From: Spirosoma oryzicola
GTDB taxonomy: Bacteria > Bacteroidota > Bacteroidia > Cytophagales > Spirosomataceae
DNA: 64,000 nucleotides
Direction of reading: 5' to 3'
NCBI RefSeq assembly: GCF_021233055.1
Contig: NZ_CP089538.1
Location: 4,108,501-4,172,500, forward strand
The notes below the pieces were generated by a model that saw only the letters and a list, made by a program, of their open reading frames with translations, was not told where the DNA came from and did not search any database. The position numbers and the translations under genes were made by a program. This document shows, piece by piece, positions 33,121-42,754 of this stretch (position 1 is its first letter; every line of letters begins with the position of its first letter).

Positions 33121-34605
33121 TTACTTCGCGCCATCGCCTTTTGCCGACTCGACCGCAAGTTTACCAACAGCCGTACCGAGTCTAGATCCTTCTTCGTTGG
33201 CGAACCGATACGCAGTACCGCTATACAGCTCTGCCTGCGTCGCTTCGGTAACCTGGGCGTTCAGTTCAGTCGCTTCGTCGGGAAACAGATAAAGCAGAAC
33301 GGCTGTAGCAGCGGATGCGAACGTGGCCTGTTCAGACGGGTAAGCGGGCGTGTTGGGAATGATCGTTGCGGTTCTGATCGTCGGGTCGATCTGCGAAGGA
33401 CGCGGTACAAAGTAAGTATACTTGGCTGCCCAGCAAGCCGTACCGCCATCCTGCAAAGCGCGGTTCACCAGCGCGTAAGTTCGGGCGGCCCGCAGTTCGT
33501 TCTGCCGGTACTGCTGGATGTATTCTTCGGCGATCAGGTTCCAATGGCCGGGAATGGTGTACGTCCCAACACCGTCGTCCCATTTTCCCGCAATACGCGA
33601 CTGTTCGCGGGTGCGCACGCTGGCAATTGTACGCACTTCGTTTAAATCATTCTGAAATGTGGCTGACGTGGTAGCTGGCGGTACAGATGTAAGACTCTTT
33701 CTAACAGCCGTTGAGTCAAGCCAGGTTTTTACGTTTCCGGCCAGCGGGGCTACCGGAGTCCGGGCAGGAATAAACAGGCTGCTCCATTTTACGTCATAAG
33801 GCGCTTTCGCCAGTACATTCGTCCACGTGTTGTTCGGGTCGTTGGCGACGCTGAACCGATCATTTTTGACCCGATCAATTACTTTTGCGGTTACGGCGGC
33901 TCCCAGATCCTCCCCTCCTTTTATGTCGCTCGGTACGTTGGCTCCGTTCCAAATTCGGCTTTGTTTGTGTTCGGTAGCTTTTGTTTTAAGCCAGGCGGTT
34001 TCGTTCGGAAAGAAATAGGCCAGCATCTGGCAGGACACTTCGGCGATGGCAGCATCTTCCGAGGGGTACGAAGGAACGTTGGCGATGGGCAAGCGCGTGG
34101 TTACCCCCTGATCCAGCAGCGATGGCCGGTTATACTGGTACTTAGCCCGCCAGGCGACAACCATCGCATCGTACTGTGCTACGCTGAGGGCGGCATAAAG
34201 TCGGGCGGCAAATGGCGCGCTAACAGGCGAATTCGTTGCCTCCTGCGGATTACCTGACTCTACACTGTACTTAGCCACCAGCAGCCGCGCAATCTGATTC
34301 CAGCGCTTGACACCCCCAACAGCCCAGTAATTGATGGCCGTGATTTTCTCTGGCTCCAGTCTGGCCACACCGTTCCTAACCTGGGCAAATTCACTTTTAT
34401 ACGCATCGGATGTAACGGCATCCGGTTGCGGAACATTGATAGCAGCCGCTGATGGCAGGACAATCGTACGCCAGTTACCACCGTCGGCATCTACGGTAGC
34501 GGGTTCACTGAACGGCAAAATGCCCTCGTCAATTATCGGTTCTTTACAACCCGATACCCACACAAGGACCGCACTCAGAAACATTATGGACAAAGACTTA
34601 TTCAT
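33121..34605 (-). CDS. haloperoxidase/PAP2-like lipoprotein, catalytic residues lost
   Basis: 494-residue lipoprotein; the ATG at 34605 (MNKSLSIMFLSAVLVWVSGC) is preferred over an upstream start at 34650, and Cys20 is the lipidation site. The fold is that of vanadium-dependent haloperoxidase / PAP2 phosphatases and is clearly paralogous to the protein at 35768-37315. KX6RP is kept (KYTYFVPRP), but the PSGH motif reads PSEQ (residues 423-426) and the SRX5H motif has Ala458, Glu459 and Ala465 in place of Ser, Arg and His. It therefore cannot bind vanadate or phosphate by the usual mechanism and is probably a pseudoenzyme. Last gene of a same-strand envelope cluster. Confidence 0.88.
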   Translation of the reverse strand: MNKSLSIMFLSAVLVWVSGCKEPIIDEGILPFSEPATVDADGGNWRTIVLPSAAAINVPQPDAVTSDAYKSEFAQVRNGVARLEPEKITAINYWAVGGVKRWNQIARLLVAKYSVESGNPQEATNSPVSAPFAARLYAALSVAQYDAMVVAWRAKYQYNRPSLLDQGVTTRLPIANVPSYPSEDAAIAEVSCQMLAYFFPNETAWLKTKATEHKQSRIWNGANVPSDIKGGEDLGAAVTAKVIDRVKNDRFSVANDPNNTWTNVLAKAPYDVKWSSLFIPARTPVAPLAGNVKTWLDSTAVRKSLTSVPPATTSATFQNDLNEVRTIASVRTREQSRIAGKWDDGVGTYTIPGHWNLIAEEYIQQYRQNELRAARTYALVNRALQDGGTACWAAKYTYFVPRPSQIDPTIRTATIIPNTPAYPSEQATFASAATAVLLYLFPDEATELNAQVTEATQAELYSGTAYRFANEEGSRLGTAVGKLAVESAKGDGAK

Positions 34606-34659
34606 TCTCGAAAAGATTCGAACGCAAAAGCGGTGAACCGTTGCGTTCATAGATAGTAA

Positions 34660-35580
34660 TTACCGGGCAATCCGTCCAATGACCAAGCCTCCGGTAACGC
34701 GGCTCGACTTACCAATATTACGTCCATCAATGGTTGCTCCGTAGCCAGCCGTCAGACCAAGTTGTCCTACCAGCTTCAGGTAGACCGTAGCGCCTACACG
34801 GCTAAAGCCGACCGCATTTGACGGAAACGGAATACCGGGCGCGATATTCGTTCCTTCGATGTACTTTTTGTACGGTGTCTGCTGCTGATACCACACGTCG
34901 ATGTAGAGCGGTTTGGTTACAATGCCGGTTCTGACAATAAGCTCCGTCACGTCGGGTACGTTGATCTTGGCACTGGTGTTGGGATTGACCTGTCCGGGTT
35001 CGTAATAATTCACAACCCGATCAAGCGTGACCTGCCCCCGGCGAATATAACCGTACTGCCCAGTCAGGAAAAAGGTACCCGCTTTCAAATGAAGCATGGT
35101 ACGTCCGTCGAGATTTCGAGAACCTCGACCAATCGCAATCAGATCGTCGTTGACGTAGTTCTGCAACGGCATCGAATACCCCAGAGCAAACAGCCAGGAA
35201 AGCCGCGCCTTACCGATTTTGTAATCGTAGGCTTCCCACCGCAACGCAGCCGACACATCCTGAAACCCTTCCTGCTTTTGTCGATACCCCGCGCTGGACT
35301 CCGACCGAATGTAAGGGGCCGACACGATCAGATCAAGATCGTAGCCCAACCCGAAACTACCGTACACGTTCAGCGCCTGCGTCGTCACTGTTCCCAAATT
35401 TGGGTCCCGCGTTTCGGTTTTGTTGATGTAATAAGAATCGTACGTTTCCTGCGAATAGGTCAGGGCTAGGTTTGCTTTTCGGTCTCCCCGCATAAAGCCG
35501 TCGATCAAGCCTTGAGCGTGGGTTGGCCGGGCAAAACACAGCCAGACAAGCGCAATAACAGGGACTGGTAAAAATCGCAT
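34660..35580 (-). CDS. outer-membrane beta-barrel protein (third of cluster)
   Basis: 306-residue protein with a signal peptide (residues 1-22, ending PTHAQ). Many short strands of alternating polarity (SFGLGYDLDLIVSAPYIRSE, LRWEAYDYKI, GTFFLTGQYGYIRRGQVTLD, VGATVYLKLVGQLGLTAGYG) and a terminal strand-like end suggest a barrel of roughly 12 strands; no family name is recognised. It is related in size and layout to the barrel at 37332-38234. It lies between the two haloperoxidase-like lipoproteins and 54 bases before the second, so it probably partners that lipoprotein in the outer membrane. Confidence 0.8.
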   Translation of the reverse strand: MRFLPVPVIALVWLCFARPTHAQGLIDGFMRGDRKANLALTYSQETYDSYYINKTETRDPNLGTVTTQALNVYGSFGLGYDLDLIVSAPYIRSESSAGYRQKQEGFQDVSAALRWEAYDYKIGKARLSWLFALGYSMPLQNYVNDDLIAIGRGSRNLDGRTMLHLKAGTFFLTGQYGYIRRGQVTLDRVVNYYEPGQVNPNTSAKINVPDVTELIVRTGIVTKPLYIDVWYQQQTPYKKYIEGTNIAPGIPFPSNAVGFSRVGATVYLKLVGQLGLTAGYGATIDGRNIGKSSRVTGGLVIGRIAR

Positions 35581-35698
35581 AGTTCTGCTTTAGGCGGGTA
35601 AAGGTAGCCGTTCGCTAGCATCCTTCCCATTAAAGTTGGTGATTCTGTGTCTGCGGTCTTCGTTAGTAACGCCAGGAATAGACAAGTCGTGTACGGCC

Positions 35699-35738
35699 TA
35701 AAACAATAGTTCCCGGCCGCAACGCAACCGGGAACTAC
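35699..35738 (-). terminator. hairpin after the intact haloperoxidase-like gene
   Basis: TAGTTCCCGG (35707-35716) and CCGGGAACTA (35728-35737) form a perfect 10-bp stem; on the minus strand TTGTTTT follows. It could terminate or attenuate transcription before the third barrel gene. Confidence 0.6.
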
Positions 35739-35767
35739 GATTAACCTATGATAAACTCTTTAAACTC

Positions 35768-37315
35768 TTACAATCCTGATCCGTCAGCTTTGCCACGAGC
35801 GATGGCATAAGCGCCAATCGCATTGCCGTGGTCTACCCCTTTTTCGGAATCGAACCGATAGTGAATCAAGCCATATATCCGCGACAAAGATGCCTCGTTG
35901 GCCTGTGCCTTAAATTCATCGGCCTTATCAGGAAAAATATAGGCTAACACCGTAGCGGCTGCGCCCGAGAAGGTCGAGTGACCGGATGGGTACGAAGGAA
36001 AGTTGGGCAGCCCGACCGATGTTTTCATACCGAATTGTTGCGGACGAGGATAATAGTAGTAGTACTTTGCTTCCCAGCAACCGATGGCAGCGTCCATTTC
36101 GGTCGTACCCAGCAACGCCAGCATACGCGCCATGCGGACTTCGCTGTATTTTGCATCATGGCCTGCGTTGGCCGCCGTACGGTGCCAGTGACCGGGAGGG
36201 GTGTAACTGCCCGGACCATCAGACCAGAAGTTCGCAACACGAGCCTGTTCGCGGGTTTGGCTTTTGTTGATCTTACTCAACTCCGAAAAATCAGTGTTGT
36301 ATTCGGCACTGTTCAGCTCCGGTGGTGCGGGTGGGCGCATGCTGACCAAGGTTTTCTTGTCAAAATTCCAGGTCTGAACCGAGCCGTAATTGGGCAACAT
36401 CGGTGGACGCGCCGGACTCTCCTGACTTACCCAGACATCTTTGAGTCCACGCTCTTTGGCCGCCTGAATCATCCCCGCCGTCACGGTCTGGTTGTTCGAC
36501 GTGCTCATCCCATCGGCTTTGGCCCGACCCATTATTTTTGCCGCTACAGCCGTACCGAGTGCCTCACCGGCGGTCAGATCACTCTCGACGTTCACACCCG
36601 CCCACAGACGGCTGTTGCGATGCTCGGCCAGTTTAGCATCCAGATAGGCTACTTCGCCGGGAAACATAGCTTTCAGAATAACCACCGAAGCCGTAGCCAC
36701 AACCGCATCTTCGGATGGGTACGATGGGAGAGCCGACGTAGCCAGCAACGGTTTGATGGAAGCATCCGCTTTATCGGGCGAAATCCGGTTGTACTTGTAT
36801 TTGTAATACCAGGTCGATACCAGGGCGTCGTACTGCGCTACGCTCAAATAAGCCAGAGCACGAGCCGAATACGGTGGATTCGCAAACGGAAACCTTGGGT
36901 CCGCCAGCGGGTTGGCCGCGTCCGGTACGGGGTATTTTCCATCGGCTGTCGAAGCAGGTGGAATATTGTAACGAGCGCACAATTCACGCCCGATTTCGTT
37001 CCAGCGATACACGGCACCGGCTCCCCAGTAGGTTACGGCATCCTGCTGGCTGGCTGTCAGGTTGGTCGTTTTTTGTTTTAAACTGGCCAGTTCAGCCTGA
37101 TATTCAGTAGACCCCACCGCTTTGGGTGCGTCCACAACTATATCAGCGGGTGATGCCAGTACGTATGTTTTCCAGTTACTTGCTTTTTCGTCAAGATTAG
37201 CGGGTGTGTAAGCCTGAACCTGTGGCTCATCGATGCCTTTGTCGCACGACAAAAATGCTGTCGACAAACCAGCGGCAACACTCGTAATTAGTAAAAATTG
37301 ACTTAACTTTTTCAT
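35768..37315 (-). CDS. vanadium-haloperoxidase/PAP2-superfamily lipoprotein, motifs intact
   Basis: 515-residue lipoprotein; start at 37315 (MKKLSQFLLITSVAAGLSTA), lipidation at Cys24 (FLSCDKG). All three vanadate/phosphate-binding motifs are present in the C-terminal half: KX6RP as KYYYYYPRP, PSGH with His446, and SRX5H with Arg479 and His485. A second, degenerate half-copy lies upstream (KYKYNRIS then PSYPSED), giving an internal duplication typical of large bacterial VHPO-like proteins. It may be a haloperoxidase or an acid phosphatase; sequence alone does not decide. It starts 16 bases after the barrel gene at 37332, so the two are co-transcribed and likely act together at the outer membrane. 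Confidence 0.9.
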   Translation of the reverse strand: MKKLSQFLLITSVAAGLSTAFLSCDKGIDEPQVQAYTPANLDEKASNWKTYVLASPADIVVDAPKAVGSTEYQAELASLKQKTTNLTASQQDAVTYWGAGAVYRWNEIGRELCARYNIPPASTADGKYPVPDAANPLADPRFPFANPPYSARALAYLSVAQYDALVSTWYYKYKYNRISPDKADASIKPLLATSALPSYPSEDAVVATASVVILKAMFPGEVAYLDAKLAEHRNSRLWAGVNVESDLTAGEALGTAVAAKIMGRAKADGMSTSNNQTVTAGMIQAAKERGLKDVWVSQESPARPPMLPNYGSVQTWNFDKKTLVSMRPPAPPELNSAEYNTDFSELSKINKSQTREQARVANFWSDGPGSYTPPGHWHRTAANAGHDAKYSEVRMARMLALLGTTEMDAAIGCWEAKYYYYYPRPQQFGMKTSVGLPNFPSYPSGHSTFSGAAATVLAYIFPDKADEFKAQANEASLSRIYGLIHYRFDSEKGVDHGNAIGAYAIARGKADGSGL

Positions 37316-37331
37316 GGTTTGTACGGCTGAA

Positions 37332-38234
37332 TTATTTCCTAAAATTGATTTGATACAGTAGCCCAACGGTATAGCTGGTGCTCTGTCCTACGTTCAGTCC
37401 ATCGACGACGTAACCGACCCGGGCGTTAACCCCAACATTCCGGGGTTGAAACTTACCGTACCAGCCCACCGATGTAGCCTGCATGTTGTTTGTTGGGAAA
37501 GGCATATCGTTCCGACGAATGTTGTCGCCACTCAGGCAGGCGGTACGCTCCGCCCATACTTCGGTTTGCCACCCTTTCCGCAGGACACCCAGGCGAACCG
37601 CTGCATCGTAAACGTTAGGCATTTTCACCTGATTGGTGTTGTAAAGACGTTCGTCGGCGAGGTAGGAATCGCGGTCGAGCTTAATGTTACTCCGCCATCC
37701 GTAGCTGCCGTGCGCCGTCAGATACAGGCCCGTCGATGGGTGTTTGTAGTTGGCTAGTAAGCGCGCGGTAGCGGTACGGCATTGCAACCCAATCGACATG
37801 GGCATGAAATCAGGAACATAGCCACCCAGTGGAACGGATGCGCCGACAATACCATGCAGCGAAAACCCACCGGCAACAAACGCTTTTACTTTTAACCAGG
37901 CCGATATATCCTGAATACCCCGCTGCCCCATCAGATTACCCGCGCTGGCGCTCGTCCAGACGTAGGGTAAGCTCAAAATCACATTTACCCGCTTGCTAAT
38001 TCCGATAGCGGGCATGATCATGGCACTTTGGGTTGTATGGGTGCCAATATTGAAGTTTTCGCGTTTGAGTGTATTCTCCCAGTAGTTATTCCAGGAGCTA
38101 TGTCCGTACATGGCAGCCACACAAACCGAGTTCTTCCCCATGTAGATAGCGTCGTGTGGCATCTGCGCCCGAACGGCGAAAGGCATGAGCAGCAATGCCA
38201 GCGCCAGGTACTGTAGATTCTTTTTCATAGTCAT
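37332..38234 (-). CDS. outer-membrane beta-barrel protein (second of cluster)
   Basis: 300-residue protein with a signal peptide (residues 1-23, ending AVRAQ). It has alternating strands throughout (SVCVAAMYGHSSWNNYW, RVNVILSLPYVWTSAS, FSLHGIVGASVPLGGY, VGVNARVGYVVDGLNVG) and ends YTVGLLYQINFRK, consistent with a 12-strand outer-membrane barrel. It shares layout (a NVILSLPYV strand, an IQDISAWLKVKAF segment) with the barrel at 34660-35580, so the two are probably paralogues. It directly precedes the intact haloperoxidase-like gene. MKK at 38228 is an equally good start. Confidence 0.8.
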   Translation of the reverse strand: MTMKKNLQYLALALLLMPFAVRAQMPHDAIYMGKNSVCVAAMYGHSSWNNYWENTLKRENFNIGTHTTQSAMIMPAIGISKRVNVILSLPYVWTSASAGNLMGQRGIQDISAWLKVKAFVAGGFSLHGIVGASVPLGGYVPDFMPMSIGLQCRTATARLLANYKHPSTGLYLTAHGSYGWRSNIKLDRDSYLADERLYNTNQVKMPNVYDAAVRLGVLRKGWQTEVWAERTACLSGDNIRRNDMPFPTNNMQATSVGWYGKFQPRNVGVNARVGYVVDGLNVGQSTSYTVGLLYQINFRK

Positions 38235-38247
38235 CGGTTAACAAAGG

Positions 38248-38307
38248 AGCTGTTCAGGACTCATCGATTTGGTCGGTGGATACGTTGGAATAAGATCCTG
38301 AACAGCT
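38248..38307. other. intercistronic inverted repeat
   Basis: AGCTGTTCAGGA (38248-38259) and TCCTGAACAGCT (38296-38307) are perfect inverted 12-mers with a 36-base loop between the TonB-receptor stop and the next barrel start. Function unknown: an mRNA processing, attenuation or protein site. Confidence 0.55.
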
Positions 38308-38319
38308 GGTTTTAAAACA

Positions 38320-40548
38320 TTAGATGGTAAGGCCAACCGTCAACACCGCACTCCGACCGTCGGAAGGCCATACGCCCGGTCCAGGGTAAAATGTAGGACG
38401 TTTGGTAAAGTATTGCTTGTTTAAGAGGTTGTTAACACTGCCACGCAGGGTGAGTTGACGACCGATGCGCCAGGTGCCGTTCAAATCGACCAGCGCATAC
38501 GAGGGCACGGGTCCAACAGCTCCGTTCGCTGATGCGGTTGGCGTATTCAGCGCGTCGGAGAACGTTTCACTCACGTAACTGTATTGCAGGGTTAGACTGG
38601 CGGAACCGTAACGCGCTGTGACGCCATTGCGGCTGGTCCAACGCGGTGCCGACTCTACCTGATTCCCTTTAACCGTCCGGTTCTCTGTACCCGCCGACAC
38701 CTGACCGTTCAGATAGCGGGCGTTGTTATAAGCCGTTGACGTGAAACCACTGATCAGTATCTTCTCCGTGCGGAGCAGCTGGGCTTCGATAAGCGCTTCG
38801 ACACCTGTGCTGCGGCTGTCACCAATGTTTGTACGGAAAATATAGTTCGTACCGTCCGTGTTGGTCAGCAACAGCGTTCCTAGACGGTTGCGGTACAACA
38901 GATCAAAAACCGTCAGATTCAGGTGTAACCCTTGCCAACGGCCTTCGATACCGACTTCCGCATTGTAGCCATACGCGTCTTTCAGATTCTTGTCAATCCG
39001 TTCGTAAACCGATGTAGGAATAATGTCTTTGAAGATAACAGGACGGTAAGCCTGCGCCCAGCCACCGTACACTTTCACGGCATCGTTGATACGGTACTGA
39101 GCGTTGACGCCCAACAAAGCAAATTTGTGGCTGATGTCGGTCGGCAGATTTTCGGGCTGGTAGTACGTAATCGTACCGCGCATTTCGGTCTGGCCGTTTT
39201 CGATCCGAATACCCGGTGAAACCGTTAACCGATTCGTCAGGTGAAACTGGCTTTCGGCAAATGCCGCCAGGTTTTTGGTCCGGAAATGCAGGTCACGACG
39301 AAACGGACTGGTCAGCGTCAAATCGAAATCACTGGCTGTCGTTCCTGCGCCCTGCTGACGTCGATGTAAATCCGTGCTAATCAGCTGAACGCCCGCAGCC
39401 GCGGTTGCATTGACGTTACCAAGTTGGTACTGATGCATCAGGCGTACTTCGGTTGTGTAGCTGTGAAAATTGTCGATATCAACCTGACGGGCTCTGTATT
39501 GTCCCGTAGCGCGGTTAATGGTGTCGGGTACGGTCGCAAATGCATCCAGTTGTACGCTGTTACGAGCGCCCAGCACCGCCGAAGTCGTCCAGAGCAACCG
39601 GGTCCGATCCGATAGCTGCCAGTCTACTTTGATCGACGGTACGTAAATATCCGGGTTAAAATAATTCCGGCTTCGGGTCGACTGGCGCGGGTCCTGCGCA
39701 AACATGGCATCGGTTAGCGGCCCCGGAATCTGGTAGGTGTAGGTAGAGCGTCCCACCTCCGCCGTTATTCCCAACCGCTCATTAGCCTGGTAATGCAACC
39801 GCCCTAATTGCGCTTCGGCATCCGACCGGCTATTTTGCCGGTATCCATCCGAATGACGACGGTAGTAGTACGCGTAGTAAGTCCATTTCCCGACCCGACC
39901 ACCGATGGCGTTATACGTGCTCAACAAGCCATACGACCCAACAGAGTTAACCGTTTCAAAACCAAAACGCCGTGTACTATCGGCTCGTTTGGTTACGTAG
40001 TTTAGCATCCCTCCAAATTGGGCTCCGTACTGTAGCGAAGCGGTTCCACGCACGAATTCAACCCGTTCGATGCTTTCCATCGGGGCGGAGTAATGACTGG
40101 CTGGGTAACCGTACATATCCGAATTGGTGATTACTCCATTCTGCCGAATGTTATTCTCCCAGGAACGGTGTGGGTCCAGTCCACGAGTCGCTATATTGAT
40201 TTGATTTCCTGTTCCATCCATATCGTACACAAACACACCCGGAATCCGGGCAAATACCTGCCGGGGCGTCTTCTCAGCTACGTTTGCGTCCACATCAGCC
40301 AGCTTGATCACTTCGCTCCGCTTACCACCCATCAGATACGTGCCGTAGACTTCGGGCAGTGATTCTACGACAACTGGCTTTACTCCCTTAACCGTCACCT
40401 GACTCAGGGTACGGGTGGGCAACGAATCAGAAACGGGCTTGTTGCCAGCTTCCCCTTTGTTAGTCATTTTCTGCGCGTATAGCTGCCCTGCCAGAGCGAC
40501 CATCGCTATTATCAATGCGTAATCAATTCTTATTTGTGATTTCTTCAT
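38320..40548 (-). CDS. TonB-dependent receptor, FecA-like
   Basis: 742-residue outer-membrane receptor. Signal region ends near LAGQLYAQK and the TonB-box area (TRTLSQVTVKG) follows. The plug is FecA-like: KTPRQVFARIPGVFVYDMDG, NIATRGLDPHRSWENNIRQN, EFVRGTASLQYGAQFGGMLN. The barrel of about 22 strands ends in a terminal strand VLTVGLTI. The FecA/siderophore group imports ferric complexes, but family members also take other ligands, and no FecIR-type sigma/anti-sigma pair lies here. Its position among three barrels and two haloperoxidase-like lipoproteins suggests the ligand is processed at the surface by that enzyme (inference). Confidence 0.92.
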   Translation of the reverse strand: MKKSQIRIDYALIIAMVALAGQLYAQKMTNKGEAGNKPVSDSLPTRTLSQVTVKGVKPVVVESLPEVYGTYLMGGKRSEVIKLADVDANVAEKTPRQVFARIPGVFVYDMDGTGNQINIATRGLDPHRSWENNIRQNGVITNSDMYGYPASHYSAPMESIERVEFVRGTASLQYGAQFGGMLNYVTKRADSTRRFGFETVNSVGSYGLLSTYNAIGGRVGKWTYYAYYYRRHSDGYRQNSRSDAEAQLGRLHYQANERLGITAEVGRSTYTYQIPGPLTDAMFAQDPRQSTRSRNYFNPDIYVPSIKVDWQLSDRTRLLWTTSAVLGARNSVQLDAFATVPDTINRATGQYRARQVDIDNFHSYTTEVRLMHQYQLGNVNATAAAGVQLISTDLHRRQQGAGTTASDFDLTLTSPFRRDLHFRTKNLAAFAESQFHLTNRLTVSPGIRIENGQTEMRGTITYYQPENLPTDISHKFALLGVNAQYRINDAVKVYGGWAQAYRPVIFKDIIPTSVYERIDKNLKDAYGYNAEVGIEGRWQGLHLNLTVFDLLYRNRLGTLLLTNTDGTNYIFRTNIGDSRSTGVEALIEAQLLRTEKILISGFTSTAYNNARYLNGQVSAGTENRTVKGNQVESAPRWTSRNGVTARYGSASLTLQYSYVSETFSDALNTPTASANGAVGPVPSYALVDLNGTWRIGRQLTLRGSVNNLLNKQYFTKRPTFYPGPGVWPSDGRSAVLTVGLTI

Positions 40549-40679
40549 TTTAGGCTGTACTGTTAAAAGAAGCTATTCAATCATCCGATCACTGAGATCC
40601 TACGGGGCAATATGCCAAAGGATGCCAAAGATGAAGTCACGTCATGTCGCTCAATAAAGCAATCATGGATGTAAGAGTG

Positions 40680-40709
40680 GAAGATCGAACACAGCGGTGT
40701 CCGATCTTC
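40680..40709. other. intergenic hairpin between receptor and first barrel genes
   Basis: GAAGATCGAACAC (40680-40692) and GTGTCCGATCTTC (40697-40709) pair at 12 of 13 positions around AGCG. It lies just after the first barrel's stop on the minus strand but lacks a T-run, so attenuation or processing is more likely than full termination. Confidence 0.55.
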
Positions 40710-40758
40710 GTCCTCCCGAACAGCGTGAATAGAAAAAGTAAACTCTTGTATATTGTAC

Positions 40759-41880
40759 TTAAAACCAACGTGATACGTTGATCGATACCAGGTAATCAGC
40801 GAAGGCGGCATCGCCGTGCTTCTGTCCCAGTGGATCTAACCGATCAGCATAACTCTTGATCCGGTTCCGGTAAATAGCGATAGGCACTGTAGCCGCTACC
40901 GATGTTTTGTGACGCATATAAGCCAGTCCTGGCTCAACGGAAACGATATAACCGGGCCGCCGGAAACCAGAACTTCCACCGATGGCGTCCATTGCCGGAA
41001 CGCCTTCTACCCGACCGCCCAGCATGACGGACAATCCGGGAACAAAACCCAGCGATTGACTCAAGCCAAGACGAGCGGCAAACTGGTCGGCCACCGAGAA
41101 TGTTCCAACCACCGGATCAACGGGTGTTACTTCGGGACTACGGATAACGCCATTGGTTTCGCGCGGGTTAAACAGGTAAAAACCGTTTGCGTAAGCGGTC
41201 AGCGTTTTTGTTAGCTGCGCATACCCCTGAAGCTCAACACTCGCTCCAACTCCCCCATCGCCAAGCTGAATCGATTGGTCAACTGGTTTATTGATGGTGT
41301 AGTCGGTGCCTTCTTTCGTCAGCTTGTGAAAATCATCGGTCGCCTGATAATTTCCCGTTGGCAGCTTAATGCCAAGGCCCACAGCAAGATTCGCTTTGGG
41401 TAACTTGGCCGGATTAATCACCCAGTAGCTTCCGGAAATCCGCAGGTCGCCGATCCCCTGGGAACCCGTATGAAACCGCTTTTGCTCAGGATTCTGGGCT
41501 ACTGCGTTCCCATAATGTTCATAAAGCGACGAACGATCGTTGTACTGAATCGGCAGATTCGCCGAAAAGGACAGCCGATGGTTGACCAGATACGTTATGC
41601 CCAGGTCAAGGGCATGCGACACGTTGATTACCTGTGTCCCTTGCTCGACACGATGTTTCTGCTCGACATCACCGACGAAGTGTTTGTACGAGCGGAAGAA
41701 ACGGTAACCGGCTGATACTTGCCAGTGTCCATTACGTTGTTTGAAAAAGTCGGCTGAGTTCATTCCTGCCGGAGCCGCGCAACTCATATGCCGCACGGCG
41801 ACGCAACCCTGCGCCCGGCTGGATTCAGTCGAAAATAGTGTATAGGCTACCGCTAGAACGATAGTAGAAATCGTTTTCAT
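40759..41880 (-). CDS. outer-membrane beta-barrel protein with N-terminal Cys motif
   Basis: 373-residue protein; start at 41880 (MKTISTIVLAVAYTLFSTES) chosen over an upstream in-frame start at 41925. After the signal peptide (about 24 residues, ending SSRAQ) the mature protein opens with GCVAVRHMSCAAPAG, a paired-cysteine motif that I recall from a conserved Bacteroidota barrel family usually labelled transporter. Strands such as GHWQVSAGYRFFRSYKHFVG, ALDLGITYLVNHRLSFSANL, QYNDRSSLYEHYG and NLAVGLGIKLPTG are typical of it, and the C-terminus ends in SINVSRWF with terminal Phe. It precedes the FecA-like receptor in the same direction. Substrate unknown; metal or metal-complex handling is plausible. 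Confidence 0.85.
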   Translation of the reverse strand: MKTISTIVLAVAYTLFSTESSRAQGCVAVRHMSCAAPAGMNSADFFKQRNGHWQVSAGYRFFRSYKHFVGDVEQKHRVEQGTQVINVSHALDLGITYLVNHRLSFSANLPIQYNDRSSLYEHYGNAVAQNPEQKRFHTGSQGIGDLRISGSYWVINPAKLPKANLAVGLGIKLPTGNYQATDDFHKLTKEGTDYTINKPVDQSIQLGDGGVGASVELQGYAQLTKTLTAYANGFYLFNPRETNGVIRSPEVTPVDPVVGTFSVADQFAARLGLSQSLGFVPGLSVMLGGRVEGVPAMDAIGGSSGFRRPGYIVSVEPGLAYMRHKTSVAATVPIAIYRNRIKSYADRLDPLGQKHGDAAFADYLVSINVSRWF

Positions 41881-42162
41881 TGAGAAAGATCTAGGTTGAT
41901 CCTGTGTGAATAAGTTGATTGACAATTGCCGACAAGCAATGCATCAACTGGACGCACAAAAGCGCGTACACCTGTGACACAAGGCATTACCAGCAATGAC
42001 AAAAATGGATAGATTACAGTGTGCGAGGATTCGTACCAGCGATTTAGAGGCCAACAAACCGACGGGCAGAACCTACGACCGCTGTTCAGATGCCACAGAT
42101 GTAGGCATAGCCAACGGATCAGTAGAATGTACTGAAAACACACTGTAAAATCATTCAGGAAC

Positions 42163-42702
42163 CTAGATTTCTGGCGGGGGTGAGTGAACGGGCAGCGCAC
42201 GAGCCGCAAACACAAATAATGTGTCGGGAATGCGAACAGCCTCGCGCCATATAGGAGAAAGGAAACTAAAAATGGCTCGCGGATTGGGCGAGTATTCTTT
42301 CAACAAGAATTTGAGCAGCTGATTAGCTTTATGATTAGAATCTGTCGTACCCGAAATATGGTCGTTCAGAAACGAAAGCAAGTCGCTTTGCCAGAAGGAG
42401 CGCCCTTCCGCTTCCAGACCAGCAATGTGCAGGGTGTCGCCCCGGATTTCCAGACTCACCACACTATAATAATGCCCCCGGTACGTAAATCCATCCGATG
42501 TGGTATTCGCCAGCGTGCTTTCGTCGGGTTTGTCTTTGAGCGGAATCTGGAATTCAACGATACTATCAACCGATCGATAAACCAGTAGTCGTTCGGATAA
42601 GTCGTGCTCAGCCTGCCACCACGTACCGATGCACACAAGCACATAAGCCAGTGTGTGGTACAGTAGTAAAACGAAGAGACCGATTGAGACGACTTTCTTC
42701 AC
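42163..42702 (-). CDS. small membrane protein at head of envelope cluster
   Basis: 179-residue protein beginning at a GTG codon (42702). An N-terminal membrane helix (MKKVVSIGLFVLLLYHTLAY) anchors a soluble domain of strands: SERLLVYRSVDSIVEFQIPL, YRGHYYSVVSLEIRGDTLHI. It ends HSPPPEI, a proline-rich tail. I recognise no named family; similar membrane-anchored proteins accompany TonB receptors and barrels of this type in Bacteroidota (recollection, not a search). It opens the minus-strand cluster and has a good promoter 22 bases upstream of its start. Inner-membrane or outer-membrane placement is uncertain. Confidence 0.7.
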   Translation of the reverse strand: MKKVVSIGLFVLLLYHTLAYVLVCIGTWWQAEHDLSERLLVYRSVDSIVEFQIPLKDKPDESTLANTTSDGFTYRGHYYSVVSLEIRGDTLHIAGLEAEGRSFWQSDLLSFLNDHISGTTDSNHKANQLLKFLLKEYSPNPRAIFSFLSPIWREAVRIPDTLFVFAARALPVHSPPPEI

Positions 42703-42724: not shown

Positions 42725-42754
42725 CAAAAATAATACTAAATTTTAAATAACAAA
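42725..42754 (-). promoter_or_regulatory. Bacteroidota-type promoter of the envelope cluster
   Basis: On the minus strand TATTTTTG (plus 42725-42732) matches TAnnTTTG, with TTTG (plus 42751-42754) 18 bases upstream as -33 element. It would start transcription about 15 bases before the GTG of the small membrane protein gene. Confidence 0.5.

Follow-up and report, generated by a model that had tools for sequence, protein, structure and literature searches.

What kind of envelope system is encoded by a run of seven genes in Spirosoma oryzicola that sets two haloperoxidase-like proteins beside barrel proteins and a TonB-dependent receptor? The genes lie on the minus strand at positions 33121-42702 of a 64,000-nucleotide (nt) stretch of contig NZ_CP089538.1 (hereafter the window), and a first-pass annotation of that sequence had treated them as one composite outer-membrane system. 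Its observation is partly confirmed. The coordinates of the open reading frames (ORFs) bear out seven co-directional genes in the order A-B-C-D-E-F-G, and each lipoprotein has a barrel that accompanies it, but the seven do not make up one obligatory system. The best-supported statement is that a conserved D-E pair sits in an A-headed gene set, in which B and C are common but optional and F-G is lineage-specific. We give even chances to a fuller interpretation, that of a conserved Bacteroidota envelope operon in which E, a vanadium haloperoxidase (VHPO)-type protein, has D as its dedicated barrel and A acts in cis as the head protein. The genes would then be co-transcribed.

The features discussed below are as follows.

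42725..42754, minus strand: promoter candidate, TTTG and TATTTTTG with an 18-nt spacer, about 22 nt 5' of the GTG start of A
42163..42702, minus strand: A, small membrane protein of 179 amino acids (aa) with a hydrophobic N-terminus and C-terminal HSPPPEI; operon-head family
40759..41880, minus strand: B, outer-membrane barrel (PF13557 in Pfam) with a conserved Cys26 near the mature N-terminus (14-row alignment)
38320..40548, minus strand: C, TonB-dependent receptor with plug and barrel (Pfam, NCBIfam); facultative member
37332..38234, minus strand: D, probable barrel and constant partner of E (adjacency and co-occurrence)
35768..37318, minus strand: E, VHPO-fold protein with a lipoprotein-like N-terminus and intact active site
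35706..35738, minus strand: 15-bp hairpin with a short T run between E and F (scan for terminator-like sites)
34660..35580, minus strand: F, paralogue of D and partner of G (tree clade)
33121..34605, minus strand: G, VHPO-like pseudoenzyme with an eroded C-terminal site and a retained N-terminal pseudo-site (tree clade and residue table)

The start of E was set at ATG 37318, as a longer TTG frame runs into D, and that of G at ATG 34605. Intergenic gaps measure 282 nt (A-B), 210 nt (B-C), 85 nt (C-D), 13 nt (D-E), 187 nt (E-F) and 54 nt (F-G), a span of 13 to 282 nt that does not bear out the earlier description of short gaps only. A Pfam scan of the window's proteins assigned PF13557 to B, Plug and TonB barrel domains to C, and PAP2 to E and G; the same scan gave zero matches for A, D and F.

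The D-E gene pair

A scan of genome contigs with E provided 80 named loci, and tblastn with D and F located a D-type barrel no more than 400 nt upstream of E in 77 of these. The three loci without one are L137, at a contig edge, L153, with a broken copy, and L155, an unrelated VHPO from Pedobacter. Across 150 sampled genomes of the family, both D and an E-type protein (E-value <= 1e-100) were present in 125, neither in 23, and one only in 2 (G025 and G105); three D-lacking genomes in this count were deduced rather than seen directly among the matches listed, and one genome with an intermediate E match of 2e-73 (G010) was counted as neither. Both exceptions lie at contig edges, and the D match in G025 reaches only 4e-4. 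In a phylum search with D, 80 of 395 genomes matched at an E-value <= 0.001, 29 of them at < 1e-50, and E adjoins the barrel in 25 of the 26 best D loci outside the family, although in five of those 26 distant loci (L202, L204-L207) the barrel is nearer F than D. By these counts, D and E come and go as a pair. E-type proteins occur in 126 of the 150 sampled genomes of this one family and are scattered through other Bacteroidota, so their physiological role is directly testable by gene removal.

D is probably a barrel, although the window's copy does not match PF13557. Two of 36 family members do match it (best 1.6e-7). A possible relationship of D to B scored a probability of 40.5% and an E-value of 0.00029 in hhalign. 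As the dedicated barrel of E, D may serve as its anchor or export partner, or as a pore for its substrate or product.

The active site of E

Algae, fungi and streptomycetes are the best-known sources of vanadium haloperoxidases. E has the two four-helix bundles of the fold, and its active-site segments (residues 414-426, 444-447 and 479-490) are intact. For both E and G we used K, R, S, G, H, R, H, which we take to be the vanadate-binding set; the window's E retains seven of these seven residues, each at least 90% conserved across the E alignment. E matches PF01569 (PAP2) at 54.4 bits against a cut-off of 27.2, and its closest named relative, from Spirosoma validum, is 78% identical. PF22778 (VCPO_2nd) was found in precomputed PF22778.4 matches on relatives of E, while the Pfam scan of E itself gave PAP2 only; a genome search with PF22778.2 gave zero matches, with no control responding either. 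E also contains a degenerate N-terminal repeat (residues ~170-247) with a strongly conserved pseudo-site, YPSED ... SR..AGMN, which suggests a second, non-catalytic binding site. With what we read as a lipoprotein-like N-terminus, E would be an outer-membrane lipoprotein that uses H2O2 and a halide or similar anion.

The F-G pair

Trees were built from 66 of 94 E/G rows and 62 of 85 D/F rows, after close relatives and fragments were dropped. All 11 F rows form one clade with 100/100 support and all eight G rows one fully supported clade, and each protein therefore appears to be one old lineage. At the named loci, the pair was seen in Spirosoma, Fibrisoma and one unassigned Spirosomataceae bin. 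On this evidence F-G is a separate, lineage-restricted pair, paralogous to D-E.

Residues of G were tabulated in 24 rows, comprising the window and 23 loci, with several genomes represented twice and two rows gapped at Arg480 and His486. The C-terminal site is eroded (Gly446 in 0/24, His447 in 10/24, Arg480 in 3/22 and His486 in 3/22), with Arg425 (24/24) and Lys418 (16/24) still present, and across these rows G does not carry the full vanadate-binding set of a VHPO. In the N-terminal half, Arg178, Pro201, Ser202, Glu203 and Ser236 are found in all 24 rows, and Asp204 and Arg237 in 21. Because this pseudo-site is kept though the C-terminal site is eroded, G looks like a conserved pseudoenzyme rather than a decaying gene, and it probably binds rather than catalyses. 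The contrast between the two lipoproteins drawn in the first-pass annotation was correct, in that E keeps its catalytic motif while G, which also matches PAP2, has lost it.

Gene neighbourhood

Clustering of ORFs from the 80 named loci recovered the E family in 78, A in 75, D/F in 72 and B in 39, with the flanking MoaA gene and a family labelled J in 16 each. Modularity was counted at the 75 loci with a strong match to the E model, as same-strand genes no more than 10 kb from E. A was present in 71, D/F in 70, B in 35 and C in 16, together with SusC-type TonB genes (26), CMD (24), MFS (22), DUF2490 (20) and DUF3179 (20). A looser tblastn search placed C at 23 of 80 loci, some of these matches being cut. 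At 27 Dyadobacter loci, A was present in all 27 and D in 25, with B, C and the other cluster genes in none. C lies inside the operon or immediately 3' of E in several genera, and it also stands behind A without D-E at two loci (L163 and L164). A locus from a distant family (L211) has the complete order A-VHPO-B-D-E-C.

Gene order in close relatives, a check proposed with the original description, is conserved, and the core is kept beyond the genus. As judged from sequence comparison, the neighbourhood is conserved but modular, with A usually heading the operon and B and C optional, and the A-(B)-(C)-D-E set is found again elsewhere in the family and, here and there, in other families of the phylum. 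A single seven-gene unit was rejected, as F-G is separable and B and C are facultative. Searches limited to open-access literature surfaced no description of the seven-gene composition.

At three Spirosoma loci (L085, L089 and L092), E and F are separated by a run of CMD-SusC TonB-MFS-CMD-CMD-DUF3179 genes, roughly 7 kb long. The window's E-F gap is 187 nt, and the host's CMD-SusC-MFS-CMD-CMD run, without DUF3179, is on contig C2 behind its own copy of A. The window's A, B, D, E and C have counterparts with 55-77% identity at one locus (L139) of a record named Flavobacterium sp. SUN052, reflecting either transfer or a misnamed assembly. The window's genes are flanked downstream by a GlgE-type gene and upstream by a divergent MoaA-type gene, the latter named from its sequence.

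B matches PF13557 at 27.6 bits (gathering cut-off 22). Its mature part begins QGCVAVRHMSC, with Gln24, Gly25 and Cys26 invariant in 14 rows. C had been called FecA-like; its Plug and TonB barrel domains are present, but the label is loose, as C scores 106.3 bits against the NCBIfam FecA cut-off of 1100 and 149.9 bits against the TonB-siderophor cut-off of 223.5. B, and C where present, would move related small molecules.

Gene A and the operons it heads

A is the most unusual component of the operon, a point that the first-pass annotation overlooked. No credible Pfam or NCBIfam family match was found for it; 30 members searched against NCBIfam and Pfam gave scattered one- or two-member matches, the best at 0.02 and 0.0044, respectively. 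Databases hold 418 relatives, of which the 120 listed are all unnamed, "hypothetical" or "uncharacterized", and A matched 51 of the 395 genomes in the phylum sample. Sequences in the family are as little as 17% identical to the window copy; core positions are conserved, and a hydrophobic N-terminus is visible in the alignment. Divergence at the three codon positions (0.181/0.098/0.475 across 15 Spirosoma sequences) indicates that A is selected as a protein.

The conserved C-terminal motif is S-P-P-P-E, not RAPP. Pro-Pro occurs within the last 16 residues in 134 of 134 sequences and Pro-Pro-Pro in 117, with all four Pro codons in use. The profile used to collect these sets covers the tail itself; of the fetched copies whose match ended before the tail (L273, L274, L275 and L279), four of four carry Pro-Pro. 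Among non-A ORFs of 90-230 aa, Pro-Pro in the last 14 residues was found in 35/466 at named loci, 11/101 at paralogue loci and 1/70 at distant loci, and many of those shown are CMD proteins.

The 7.3-Mb host genome has four copies of A, followed by the window operon, a VCPO_N+PAP2 protein, the CMD-SusC-MFS-CMD-CMD run and a di-haem CCP_MauG protein; by our reading, CMD (five) and CCP_MauG (four) genes are few in it. On host contig C1, the di-haem cytochrome c peroxidase-type protein lies directly after the fourth copy (L230:10055-11428). The first gene behind 21 chosen paralogue copies was CMD in nine, VHPO in four and a C-type TonB gene in two, with single cases of CRTAC1, SusC, DUF3179, B, an unknown 145-aa ORF and none. 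Ten of the 18 distant D-E regions had a recognisable A, followed by D (seven) or VHPO (three). A further 21 copies at 20 other distant loci preceded TonB-type genes (10), VHPO (6), CMD (3) and B (1), with one cut off; seven of these 10 TonB genes and one of these 6 VHPO genes were checked against Pfam, and each was confirmed. As these loci were picked to cover families and out-of-cluster copies, the sample is not random; the peroxide theme emerged post hoc, and one locus where ORF calling gave no recognised A (L162) was left out of the counts.

Two loci carry several copies of A. L158 (G004:C1:5147000-5165000) has three A-family genes within ~10 kb, near MetE-like, CRTAC1 and VHPO genes. At L271 (G441:C1:1577500-1586000), two PPP-tailed A genes each precede a TonB-type receptor gene, and the two pairs are convergent.

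Promoter and hairpins

A promoter upstream of A is plausible from the sequence pattern. The TTTG/TATTTTTG pair at 42725-42754, which we take to be a Bacteroidota-type -33/-7 promoter, supports this part of the original description, but not as an E. coli-type promoter, since matches to that type in the window were not above chance (9 sites versus 9.3 expected). When 15 Spirosoma upstream regions are aligned, the AT-rich spacer and the -7 half prove strongly conserved, with the window's TTTG displaced by ~3 nt from that of its relatives. The relatives' pattern has one match in the window and 0 in 100 shuffles. A looser motif was detected at 7 of 21 paralogous A genes and at 19 of the first 45 (of 82) in-cluster A genes, compared to 36 of 2060 in simple shuffles, although some of the real-gene sites are at unlikely distances from the start. 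An element common to all host copies of A was rejected, as genome-wide matches were the window copy and one three-mismatch site.

Hairpins had also been placed in the gaps, a claim that was not borne out: the window has 17 terminator-like hairpins versus 11.7 +/- 3.3 in shuffles, which is no clear excess, and conserved hairpins as operon glue were rejected on the same count. The 15-bp hairpin between E and F is a possible terminator splitting E from F-G. It was not seen in the E-F gaps of relatives in a scan for perfect stems of at least 8 bp, which also misses the window's own G-T-containing stem. Another candidate hairpin lies 46-79 nt upstream of B in 9 of 15 Spirosoma gaps.

Alternative explanations

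E could instead be a PAP2-superfamily phosphatase at the surface or in the periplasm, with D, B and C scavenging phosphate or phospho-compounds. The PAP2 match is shared by this view, and acid phosphatases do not match E over its full length, covering ~195 of 516 residues in one half; we regard it as unlikely. Somewhat less unlikely is that D is mainly an assembly or surface-export partner, which flips E or holds it outside, rather than a pore for its chemistry. Near-perfect co-occurrence and adjacency favor this role, and the barrel seems to be needed even without catalysis, because F-G repeats the pairing though the active site of G is not intact; against it, the D profile found no solved-structure relative, with zero matches in the PDB up to an E-value of 1. 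The first-pass annotation proposed a single composite importer, in which E and G oxidise or dephosphorylate a ligand that is then taken up through C. The conserved core and the pairing of lipoproteins with barrels agree with it, as do C in or right after the operon in several genera and the gene order at L211. However, C is present at 16 and B at 35 of 75 loci, Dyadobacter has A-D-E alone, F-G is separate, and C also follows A where D-E is absent, so import obligatorily via C cannot be general, and we consider the model, which is only partly supported, improbable.

Turning from the pair to its head gene, we give about one chance in three to A being a leader protein. A is a small uncharacterised ORF heading an envelope-gene operon, and a leader would be expected to occur, as A does, once per operon in cis. 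The Pro-Pro-Pro-Glu tail would slow the ribosome just before the stop codon and thereby tune the operon in cis. Several results weigh against a leader. Structure is present in the gap behind A, but not beyond that of other co-directional gaps (z -2.18), and it was rejected as support, since this better control removed the favorable impression left by an upstream-DNA control (z -0.43). This gap is not conserved, and no conserved RNA element was found after A. This last result, together with the protein-level constraint and conserved core positions, favors a trans-acting accessory protein, a membrane-anchored chaperone or partner for each outer-membrane system whose PPPE tail binds a shared partner without arrest. 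We consider such a role possible rather than probable. The tail is the most conserved part of A while whole-protein identity drops so low, and one cis copy ahead of each of several differing operons fits a cis element better; known leaders upstream of TonB genes also share this layout (PMC9426467, PMC12992588). Returning to the leader reading, our tentative extension of it is that A founds a group of Bacteroidota-wide nascent-chain regulators, membrane-anchored leaders with a terminal Pro-Pro-Pro-Glu brake that were copied to the front of operons for an extracytoplasmic peroxidase (VHPO, di-haem peroxidase or CMD) or a TonB receptor and couple expression of these surface redox and uptake systems to an envelope signal, perhaps peroxide or export state.

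Relation to known systems

A can serve as an anchor for finding related operons. If A is a leader, surface peroxidases and TonB receptors of a major phylum would join copper and Sec systems as targets of nascent-chain control. CruR of Bordetella pertussis is reported to belong to DUF2946, to carry a C-terminal RAPP and to act as a leader controlling a TonB receptor via ribosome stalling and Rho (PMC9426467), while CutF of Rhodobacter capsulatus is a nascent exported protein whose Pro-rich tail alone did not stall in a reporter (PMC9973294). Both are small exported operon-head proteins with a Pro-rich C-terminus and a TonB receptor or oxidase behind them (PMC9426467, PMC9973294), a layout that A resembles. 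A differs in that it is not DUF2946 (no match among 30 members at an E-value <= 1), ends in SPPPE instead of RAPP, has no conserved Cys pair, and heads VHPO, CMD, peroxidase or TonB genes.

A wider comparison set comprises the RAPP/RGPP-type proteins and the Sec/YidC arrest peptides (SecM, ApdA, ApcA and the Bacteroidota upstream ORFs ending in NSP or NAP). RAPP/RGPP small proteins are described upstream of TonB-related genes across Gram-negatives, with arrest by CruR in vitro (PMC12992588), and upstream ORFs restricted to Bacteroidota and ending in Pro precede sec genes (PMC10987492). Arrest peptides share with A a Pro motif near the stop codon and envelope genes downstream, and their N-terminal export signal may have a counterpart in the hydrophobic N-terminus of A (PMC10987492, PMC7897499, PMC12992588). 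A belongs to another family with another motif, the downstream genes seen are not Sec/YidC, and arrest by A is a prediction.

Another close system is the SusC-type TonB/CMD/MFS/DUF3179 operon of Spirosomaceae, which has head gene A in common and often lies directly after E; in the window's genome it differs in being on contig C2 behind its own A copy and in missing DUF3179. For E, the nearest known enzymes are the vanadium-dependent iodoperoxidase of Zobellia galactanivorans (4cit/4usz) and the bacterial and fungal VHPOs, from which it is set apart by a degenerate second active-site repeat in its N-terminal half, a lipoprotein-like N-terminus and a constant barrel partner.

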